A stretch of 64,000 nt of DNA, from the NCBI RefSeq assembly GCF_004138485.1, contig NZ_ML142848.1, positions 1,524,640 through 1,588,639 of the forward strand. The letters run 5' to 3'. The notes beneath the pieces were generated by a model. It did no database searches, was not told the DNA's origin, and saw only the letters and a program-made list of their open reading frames with translations. The translations under genes were made by a program, and so were the position numbers. Source of the stretch: Peristeroidobacter soli. Its GTDB lineage: Bacteria > Pseudomonadota > Gammaproteobacteria > Steroidobacterales > Steroidobacteraceae. Below are positions 34,269 to 35,632 of the stretch, piece by piece; the first letter of the stretch is position 1, and each line of letters begins with the position of its first letter.

Positions 34269-34296
34269 TTGACATGGGCGCGGCCGCGAGTAGGAT
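34269..34296 (+). promoter_or_regulatory. Strong sigma-70-type promoter
   Basis: TTGACA (34269-34274), a 16-bp spacer and TAGGAT (34291-34296) make a near-consensus promoter. Transcription would begin near 34303, 34 bp before a small ORF with its own AAGGAG. The next clear signal downstream is an intrinsic terminator at 34456-34493, not the start of a large gene. Confidence 0.7.
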
Positions 34297-34336
34297 GCGC
34301 GACCCCGAGTTCACAACGGCCTCAAGGAGCCGGTCA

Positions 34337-34387
34337 ATGTTCGCACCGCCCAATCTCAACCTCGATATCAACTATCACGAGCGTTAG
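34337..34387 (+). CDS. 16-residue peptide ORF with strong ribosome binding site
   Basis: AAGGAG (34324-34329) stands exactly 7 nt before the ATG, the best Shine-Dalgarno sequence in this part of the window. The ORF reads MFAPPNLNLDINYHER and stops at TAG. It lies in the 5' part of a roughly 190-nt transcript that ends at an intrinsic terminator. It has no run of one amino acid as in classic attenuator leaders. Whether the peptide itself acts, or only its translation matters for the RNA downstream, is unknown. No known leader peptide comes to mind. Confidence 0.5.
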   Translation: MFAPPNLNLDINYHER

Positions 34388-34455
34388 TTTCGCGAGATGA
34401 CTTGCGGAGCGCGCCCGCTCCAGCAAGTCAGGTGCGTAGCCCTTTGGCTCCAACG

Positions 34456-34493
34456 AACCCCTGGCTGGGAAACCCGCCAGGGGTTTTGTTTTT
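34456..34493 (+). terminator. Intrinsic terminator upstream of AAA+ ATPase gene
   Basis: AACCCCTGGC (34456-34465) pairs with GCCAGGGGTT (34476-34485). The loop contains a further GGG-AAA-CCC pairing, and TTTTGTTTTT follows. It is a textbook Rho-independent terminator ending 26 bp before the AAA+ start, so it can close the small transcript or act as an attenuator. Confidence 0.85.
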
Positions 34494-34519
34494 CCGGCTT
34501 TGGAACTTACGAACACTTT

Positions 34520-35632
34520 ATGAGCATTCACAAGCTGAGTCCCGAGAGCAGCGCGGCCGAGCAGAGCGCGTTGGCGGTCGGATTGAATTTTCATCACGAG
34601 ATACACCGGTTCCCCGAAACCATCCTCAAGGCGCGGGCCATCCGTGCGCTCGAGAACATCGCGGCGAAGTACCCGGTGTATCGCCACGTGCGTTACGCGT
34701 CGCAACGCAAGCTCGAGGAGCTGTTCGACGATCTCGCCCTGCACTCGGGGTTGAGCGCCTGTCGCCTGGGCGCCGGCAGCCTGTTGCTGGAGGGGCCGGG
34801 GATCTTCATCAGCGCCGAAGGCTGGCGGACCGGCATGTTCGTGTCGTGCGGTTTCAACATCTGGACCGAGAGCGTCGCTCGCATCGAGGAAATACGCGAA
34901 AGACTGCTACGGATCATCGGCGAGGCGTTCGCGCGTCACCGCATGTTCACGCTGTCCTGGAACTTCATGGACAGCCGCTCGGGACTGAACTTCACGACGT
35001 TCGACGAGTTGGCCAACGACGACTTGCATGACGAGGCTTACCCGGTCTTCGACCGCCCGGTTCGCACCTTCATCCGCGACTATCTGGATGCGGACGAAAC
35101 CGTGCTGTTGTTGCTGGGCCCGCCCGGCACAGGCAAGACCAAGCTCGTGCGGACCATCCTCGGCGCAATTTCCGAGCGCAAGGGCGATAGCGCGGAGGTG
35201 ATGTACACGGGCGACAAGAAGGCGCTGGAGAGCGACGAGATCTTCGTCGACTTCATCACCGGTCAGCACGACGCGTTCGTCATCGAAGACGCCGATCATC
35301 TGCTGTTGGCACGCAGCAGCGGCAATCACGATCTGCATCGCTTCCTGGCGATCGCCGACGGCGTGGTTCGGGCGCAGGGTCGTAAGATCATTTTTACGAC
35401 CAACTTGCCGAACGTCTCCGACGTCGACGAGGCCTTGTTGCGACCGGGCCGGTGTCATGCCGCCGTGCGCACTCGATTGCTGATTCGCGACGAAGCGCGG
35501 GCATTGATGCGTCGACTCGTTGCGGATGAAACTCGCTGCGACCAACTACTGAGCGAGTTGTTCCCGCCGGGCGTGCGGGCCGTGTCAGTGGCGGACGTGT
35601 ATCAGGCCAGTGGCTCGACGCGACGTGCTTGA
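34520..35632 (+). CDS. Orphan AAA+ ATPase with unknown N-terminal domain
   Basis: This 370-residue protein has a 180-residue N-terminal region of no recognised family (LEELFDDLALHSGLS, GIFISAEGWRTGMFVSCGFNIW) and one AAA+ module. Walker A is GPPGTGKTKL (about residue 200), Walker B is DAFVIEDADHLL, sensor 1 is KIIFTTNLPNVSD, and ALLRPGRCHAAVRT supplies the arginine finger region. The module resembles BCS1-like or phage-type AAA ATPases. The ATG at 34520 has no Shine-Dalgarno sequence; an in-frame upstream extension runs through the terminator and is rejected. The 3' end overlaps the convergent deacylase-like gene by 48 bp. Its only upstream company is the small terminator-ended transcript. 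Confidence 0.78.
   Translation: MSIHKLSPESSAAEQSALAVGLNFHHEIHRFPETILKARAIRALENIAAKYPVYRHVRYASQRKLEELFDDLALHSGLSACRLGAGSLLLEGPGIFISAEGWRTGMFVSCGFNIWTESVARIEEIRERLLRIIGEAFARHRMFTLSWNFMDSRSGLNFTTFDELANDDLHDEAYPVFDRPVRTFIRDYLDADETVLLLLGPPGTGKTKLVRTILGAISERKGDSAEVMYTGDKKALESDEIFVDFITGQHDAFVIEDADHLLLARSSGNHDLHRFLAIADGVVRAQGRKIIFTTNLPNVSDVDEALLRPGRCHAAVRTRLLIRDEARALMRRLVADETRCDQLLSELFPPGVRAVSVADVYQASGSTRRA

Follow-up and report, generated by a model that had tools for sequence, protein, structure and literature searches.

A conserved, duplicated RNA cassette of the Steroidobacter group as a probable translation-sensing leader of RNA-repair genes

The window analysed here, a 64,000-nucleotide stretch of the Peristeroidobacter soli genome, contains between positions 34269 and 34493 of its forward strand a compact transcription unit that is confirmed as real and conserved, being one member of a 14-copy cassette with a covarying fold. 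It is best explained as the 5′ leader of an RNA-repair gene, present in the window as a duplicated copy that serves an AAA+ partner. The reading that we favour, with moderate confidence, is that of a leader-peptide-type transcription attenuator through which RNA-repair genes would respond to the behaviour of ribosomes. A translation-sensing leader for the AAA+ gene was among three readings offered in an earlier note on this DNA; it is the best fit of the three and needs widening to an RNA-repair module of RtcB and AAA+ protein.

RESULTS

Architecture of the Unit

Promoter, SD, mini-ORF, hairpin and terminator follow one another within 34269–34493, and the near-consensus promoter, the well-spaced AAGGAG, the 16-codon ORF and the terminator of the earlier note could all be read directly from the letters. 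The promoter comprises TTGACA (34269–34274), a 16-nt spacer and TAGGAT (34291–34296), and directly 3′ of it lies a GC-rich start region, GCGCGACCCC. The SD, AAGGAG (34324–34329), stands 7 nt 5′ of the ATG of a 16-codon leader ORF, MFAPPNLNLDINYHER, that ends in TAG (34337–34387), and the GGAGCC at 34326–34331 is also the 5′ strand of a helix, P1. An intrinsic terminator, AACCCCTGGC / GCCAGGGGTT, closes the unit, with its stem at 34456–34485 and a T-rich tract reaching 34493. The gene for an AAA+ ATPase of 370 aa (Pfam AAA; 34520–35632, same strand) starts 26 nt past the terminator.

Consensus scans of the region place promoter and terminator matches singly at chance level (one promoter found against 0.7 expected, two terminators against 2.5), so it is by fold stability and conservation, not by such matches alone, that the unit is more than chance. 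The predicted 191-nt transcript folds at −81.7 kcal/mol (z −5.71), and 0 of 200 shuffles were equally stable. The promoter elements TTGAC and TAnnAT (−10), the GC-rich start region, the hairpin and the terminator are common to the 13 aligned copies and to the 14th (L036), which was read directly. The start region GCGCG[C/A]CCCC (34297–34310 in the window) is almost invariant among the window and the copies; a GC-rich discriminator is a feature of stable-RNA promoters, which by analogy hints at growth-rate control. One frame opens at an ATG 5′ of the hairpin and runs without a stop across hairpin and terminator into the AAA+ gene (34397–35632); an analogous long frame exists in some copies and is closed in others (L012 and L013), so it is probably there by chance.

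A Covarying Three-way Junction

The alignment of the 14 copies folds as a three-way junction of P1, P2, P2b and P3, followed by P4, the terminator. Its pairs are formed in 92.5% of cells, and 11 pairs and 25 cells are changed on both sides. None of 500 shuffles reached the number of both-side pairs, of both-side cells or the covariation score, and 45 of 500 reached the number of pair types. The stems are thus conserved by a covariation check of the kind that the earlier note had proposed, and the divergent copy L036 retains P3 and P4 through compensatory changes.

P1 joins the SD strand to GGCTCC (34446–34451), an anti-SD immediately 5′ of the terminator. A match of 5–8 bp between SD and pre-terminator that includes GGAG occurs in 13 of the 14 copies, but own partners (6.79 bp) are barely better than swapped ones (6.65 bp), so P1 is conserved yet unproven by covariation. 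The 5′ strand of P2, GCACC, lies in codons 3–4 of the ORF (34343–34347) and pairs with GGTGC at 34431–34435 (95.2% of cells paired). Also within the ORF is the 5′ strand of P2b, ATCTC (34353–34357), whose possible partner GAGAT (34395–34399) occupies the gap between stop codon and hairpin (helices 3 and 4, 89.3% and 76.9% of cells paired); a C-G/U-A exchange is seen in five copies, and the single-sequence fold of the window copy picks another pairing in this region. P3 is a 12–13-bp hairpin 3′ of the stop codon (34399–34429; 98.8% and 90.4% of cells paired). The 12-bp hairpin noticed earlier is present as described, but it belongs as an arm to a larger fold in which the SD is paired with the pre-terminator GGCUCC. 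In P4, 97.9% of cells are paired. Single-sequence folds give P1–P3 in most copies, with two (L002 and L011) favouring a different fold.

The segment that carries the 3′ strand of P2 (34427–34435) has an alternative partner, since GTCAGG at 34427–34432 can pair with CCTGGC of the terminator 5′ arm. All six pairs of this GUCAGG:CCUGGC helix, which joins the tail of P3 to the terminator, can form in 12 of the 14 copies, the sequence being nearly invariant and hence outside covariation testing. A search for an antiterminator in the Steroidobacter form by constrained folding and complementarity gave nothing above chance in the copies within its reach, nine of the 14 falling outside the test for want of a terminator call; the length of the GUCAGG:CCUGGC candidate is that expected by chance (p 0.38–0.53) in three copies, and two copies have 5 bp only.

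Distribution of the Copies

A DNA search revealed a second copy, 73% alike, in the window's own 9.37-Mb genome (G000:C3:97120), and the same search over 60 genomes, the window's own included, gave a match in 10, every one of the same genus. A covariance model built from the copies (R1) and run on 14 genomes of the genus, here the Steroidobacter group, returned 14 strong copies (88–173 bits) in 11 of them; the remaining matches in the genus reached at most 29 bits, two genomes (G004 and G005) having no match to R1 and one (G009) a single match of 18 bits. Everything that R1 matched outside the genus in an order sample of 296 genomes scored below 36 bits. The carriers include Steroidobacter agaridevorans, S. 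gossypii, Peristeroidobacter agariperforans, Povalibacter uvarum and several metagenome-assembled genomes.

No Rfam family matched the window or 18 leader loci outside the genus at the gathering threshold; permissive settings gave weak matches (rnk_pseudo, P15, His_leader, NsiR1), all far below their gathering scores. When R1 was applied to 19 leader loci outside the genus, five gave weak matches of 12–17 bits, two of which span the leader (L154, 17.2 bits, E 0.0055; L119, 14.8 bits, E 0.025). Matches this weak, in 5 of 19 loci, do not establish a common descent of the Steroidobacter leaders and the others. A pattern match in Neobacillus vireti (L085), where the model finds nothing, was taken as chance.

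Genes behind the Unit in the Genus

RtcB is a main RNA ligase. The unit precedes an RtcB or AAA+ gene in 9 of its 14 copies, which answers the earlier note's check on what lies in front of orthologous AAA+ genes: six copies lie directly 5′ of rtcB and three directly 5′ of the AAA+ gene (the window, G001 and G011), and in Povalibacter RNA, RtcB and AAA+ gene stand in series. The Peristeroidobacter protein behind the RNA matches Pfam RtcB at 7.6e-132. The association follows one clade of RtcB (87–100% identity to the query), which is found in six genomes of the genus and lies behind the RNA in all six, whereas none of the other RtcB proteins of the genus (six at 59–62% identity and one at 35%) does; a strict leader detector applied 5′ of these seven RtcB-like loci found 0 of 7. 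RtcB of the genus scores 150.6 against the NCBIfam model release_rtcB, below the curated cut-off of 271.8; this model presumably represents the RtcB2-PrfH group. One second-type rtcB of Povalibacter (L099) stands directly behind what look by eye like tRNA-gene sequences.

Homologues of the AAA+ gene occupy four places in 4 of the 14 genus genomes, all of them behind the RNA, either directly or behind RNA and RtcB. Eight loci with homologues outside the genus contain no rtcB within the fetched stretch (up to 1.5 kb per side); at two of them (L113 and L114) the homologue adjoins ORFs that resemble WYL-type regulators by eye, unlike the RtcB context in the genus. An origin of the AAA+ gene from plasmids or phages was considered and set aside: there was no plasmid match, and three phage records, two of which are one phage, matched part of the protein at 34–36% identity.

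The distance from terminator to rtcB is 16 nt in two copies, which makes a further promoter there unlikely, so that rtcB probably needs read-through. In S. gossypii (L011), two additional terminator-like repeats (1408–1432 and 1461–1486) lie between the RNA unit and rtcB.

The five copies with neither gene next door (G002, G003, G006, G012 and G013) keep promoter, fold and terminator. The gene downstream of these orphans is Flp-pilin-like, a label given by eye with no Pfam match for the one tested, except in G002, where it is a Mem_trans transporter. The ATG-led ORF, intact in 10 of the 14 copies, is retained in 9 of 9 copies before rtcB or AAA+ gene against 1 of 5 orphans; of the four losses, two have an ACG start, one a frame shift and one no ATG. 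Two of these four still have shorter or different Asn-rich frames (MNSNNAHIGL in L010 and, as read by eye, a TTG-led frame in L036). Loss of rtcB followed by decay of the ORF would be a simple history for the orphans; alternatively, rtcB may have been gained behind an older RNA.

Leaders before rtcB in Other Gammaproteobacteria

Among 369 genomes of the class, linked-clade RtcB (E ≤ 1e-165) was found in 19 besides the window genome, two of them in a family designated f89. Six of the 17 class loci outside f89 show by eye, a short distance 5′ of rtcB, a leader composed of a promoter, an SD, a mini-ORF, a hairpin and a terminator-like site, and 11 show none; L165, from a second genome of the family of one of these six, has such a leader by eye too. 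A leader sought at L134, which has the same-family RtcB of G194, was not seen in its 280 nt. Family f89 has the RtcB gene in 33 of 63 genomes, and all 30 loci fetched have an SD and an ORF of 9–14 codons, with an anti-SD that coincides with the stop codon or lies a few bases from it. The strict detector accepted 26 of these 30 loci and 1 of the 17 other class loci; 20 shuffles of each sequence gave an expectation of 0.0. In one f89 genus (L135–L149), the T-tract of the terminator continues into the predicted start codon of rtcB, so the terminator may also affect rtcB translation there.

Helices in f89 were counted on the 30-row alignment and compared with 500 shuffles and with controls in which the partner strand was slid. 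They form a chain, H1-H3-H6-H4-H5, in which neighbours share strands and are mutually exclusive. The post-stop hairpin H3 is 96.5% paired with 8 both-side cells, its competitor H6 98.6% with 8, the antiterminator H4 (GUCAUCCGG:CCGGAUGGC) 94.2% with 14 and the terminator H5 96.6% with 13, one locus (L143) as read being without most of the 5′ arm of H5. The GUCAGG:CCUGGC helix of the Steroidobacter form resembles H4 minus three pairs. For each of these four helices, no shuffle out of 500 attained the percentage paired, the number of both-side cells or the score, and pairing was 71% or less once the partner had been slid by up to three columns. Taken as combined states, H3+H4 and H6+H5 have 22 and 21 both-side cells, numbers that, like the scores of the two states, no shuffle out of 500 attained, and their pairing falls from 95–97% to 60% or less when partners are slid by 1–3 columns. 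The SD:anti-SD helix H1 is 77.2% paired with 9 both-side cells, a score reached by 4 of 500 shuffles, and one of its slid controls has 17 both-side cells against the 9 of the real partners. A further candidate in f89, H2 (AUG:pre-terminator), was tested and found unsupported.

Both-side pairs and pair types are the two measures that suffer least from relatedness, and by these the f89 helices are weak. Of 500 shuffles, the both-side pairs were reached by 41 (H4), 196 (H3), 140 (H6) and 71 (H5), and the pair types by 487, 195, 136 and 94, respectively; for the combined states the numbers are 32 (H3+H4) and 16 (H6+H5) for both-side pairs and 418 and 31 for pair types. Among leaders tested individually, 8 of 13 from f89 and 1 of 7 others have an antiterminator that outdoes shuffles (p < 0.05). 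Judged from the sequences, the anatomy in f89 is that of a two-state transcription attenuator, with H3+H4 as the putative read-through state and H6+H5 as the putative termination state. The attenuator reading has moderately good support in f89, and we infer it for the window.

Leader Peptides Are Rich in Asparagine

Codon use was assessed in 33 hand-thinned leaders (21 from f89, 6 from Steroidobacter and 6 others) by shuffling the letters within each ORF. Asn accounts for 68 of 384 codons where 31.3 would be expected, and 0 of 1000 shuffles had as many; the six other class leaders taken by themselves are weakly enriched (13 of 87, p 0.038). For comparison, Asn makes up 3.1–3.4% of the first 13 codons of predicted neighbouring genes, whose start sites are approximate. 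Leu shows a slight excess (43 against 34.1, p 0.045), His is not significant, and Lys, Tyr and Asp are rarer than in the shuffles. Sensing of queuosine-tRNA (Tyr/His/Asn/Asp) was rejected as an explanation: the four together give 103 against 77.4, and Asn alone carries the enrichment. The leader ORFs have no long run of one codon; the absence of a classic amino-acid run, remarked on earlier, is thus literally true, but it passes over this Asn richness. Such an enrichment offers a specific damage signal that can be put directly to the test.

The peptides of the genus share M-x-A-[PS]...L...N and are loosely conserved, while the corresponding leaders of other families encode unrelated ones. Peptide conservation, which the earlier note had named as a check, is therefore found in loose form within the genus and is absent between families, which disfavours its suggestion of a peptide gene.

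DISCUSSION

The proposed attenuator would work as follows. Transcription from the sigma-70-type promoter would normally end at the intrinsic terminator and yield a free RNA of ~190 nt. Ribosomes would be the sensor: a ribosome would load on the mini-ORF, and its position (missing altogether, halted inside the ORF or at the stop codon) would select the helices, a choice that would determine if RNA polymerase continues past the terminator into rtcB or the AAA+ gene. In terms of the f89 helices, a ribosome that stalls early would sit over the SD without touching H3, allowing H3 and then H4 to form and turning the genes on. Once the ORF is finished, the ribosome would have moved to the stop and would block the 5′ strand of H3, so that H6 and H5 would form and the genes would be off; with no ribosome, pairing of SD and anti-SD would likewise lead to H6 and H5 and the off state. 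Stalling would thus switch rtcB on, since an earlier stall leaves free the hairpin that a ribosome at the stop covers. A first model, in which the absence of a ribosome meant on, was dropped after the f89 helices came to light. The Steroidobacter form may operate like that of f89, and the signal could be translation damage, perhaps a shortage of usable tRNA-Asn.

Several other readings accommodate part of these data. One is an independent sRNA that acts in trans and may have a dual function; rtcB and the AAA+ gene would then live on read-through of its leaky terminator, and ribosomes would switch nothing. This reading seems to us unlikely. It would suit a unit with its own promoter and GC-rich start region and a strong terminator, kept in 5 of 14 copies that have neither gene next door and, in its Steroidobacter form, devoid of a convincing antiterminator; yet the ATG-led ORF persists in every one of the nine copies before rtcB or AAA+ and is lost in four of the other five, and the cassette logic recurs before related rtcB in f89, there with a conserved antiterminator pairing. 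Those four copies, which have lost start codon or frame and still keep the fold, also speak against a small-protein gene with the 15–16-aa peptide as its product. Despite a good SD, an ATG, a stop and the genus motif, we consider such a gene very improbable, as the ORF is partly constrained by the pairing of P2 and P2b and the peptides are unrelated in other families.

Conservation of the pairing even where the ORF is gone, together with a junction that is stable in most single-sequence folds, would be expected of a leader that uses the same three-way junction to sense something other than translation, be it the RtcB or AAA+ protein, a metabolite or damaged RNA ends, and autoregulation by an RNA-binding product is plausible. 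Against it, SD, start, stop and anti-SD are present in 30 of 30 f89 loci while the peptide sequence is free to vary, and we judge this possibility improbable. The translation-responsive attenuator accordingly remains our preferred reading of the unit.

A broader proposal is offered tentatively, and we regard it as rather doubtful: that an undescribed switch extends across the Gammaproteobacteria, where the ribosome engaged on an Asn-rich mini-ORF would report broken tRNA or damaged ribosomes and release RtcB independently of RtcR, the Steroidobacter cassette being a divergent, duplicated form that also drives the AAA+ gene. If true, damage and its repair would be coupled in a feedback loop whose only sensor is RNA. 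The leader would tell what the repair system senses, and it links an uncharacterized AAA+ protein to RNA repair.

In published work, E. coli induces rtcBA when agents or lesions impair translation (PMC5175333), the Salmonella rtc operon is induced by broken tRNAs through RtcR (PMC7790460), and RtcB2-PrfH protects against colicin E3, a 16S rRNA cutter (PMC9223846). The control of bacterial rtcB described in PMC7790460 and PMC5175333 runs via RtcR and sigma54. Among the papers listed by literature searches, none describes an attenuator in an rtcB leader in its title or at the start of its abstract, and the main text of PMC2965389 does not contain "rtcb".

The unit shares with the trp, his and phe attenuators a promoter, a short SD-led ORF, an intrinsic terminator and a structural gene close behind, and f89 has, as they do, helices that are predicted to be mutually exclusive. 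It differs from them in that an RNA ligase or AAA+ gene lies downstream in place of amino-acid synthesis genes, in that Asn enrichment takes the place of a block of regulatory codons, and in that the anti-SD of f89 is located at the stop. Macrolide-inducible leaders, e.g. that of MsrD, likewise use a short ORF to sense ribosome trouble, whereas here no drug-binding stall motif was noticed and the terminator precedes an RNA ligase. What the cassette would have in common with rtcBA of E. coli and Salmonella, as PMC7790460 and PMC5175333 present it, is the proposed response of RtcB to damaged tRNA or impaired translation; those operons have a CARF-domain activator and a sigma54 promoter, whereas the present system, known from sequence, has a sigma70-type promoter and an RNA leader. 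A translation-sensing leader, if this is what the unit is, would be a second, RNA-based coupling of RNA repair to translation damage, and would feed rtcB the same kind of input as the RtcR systems by another route.
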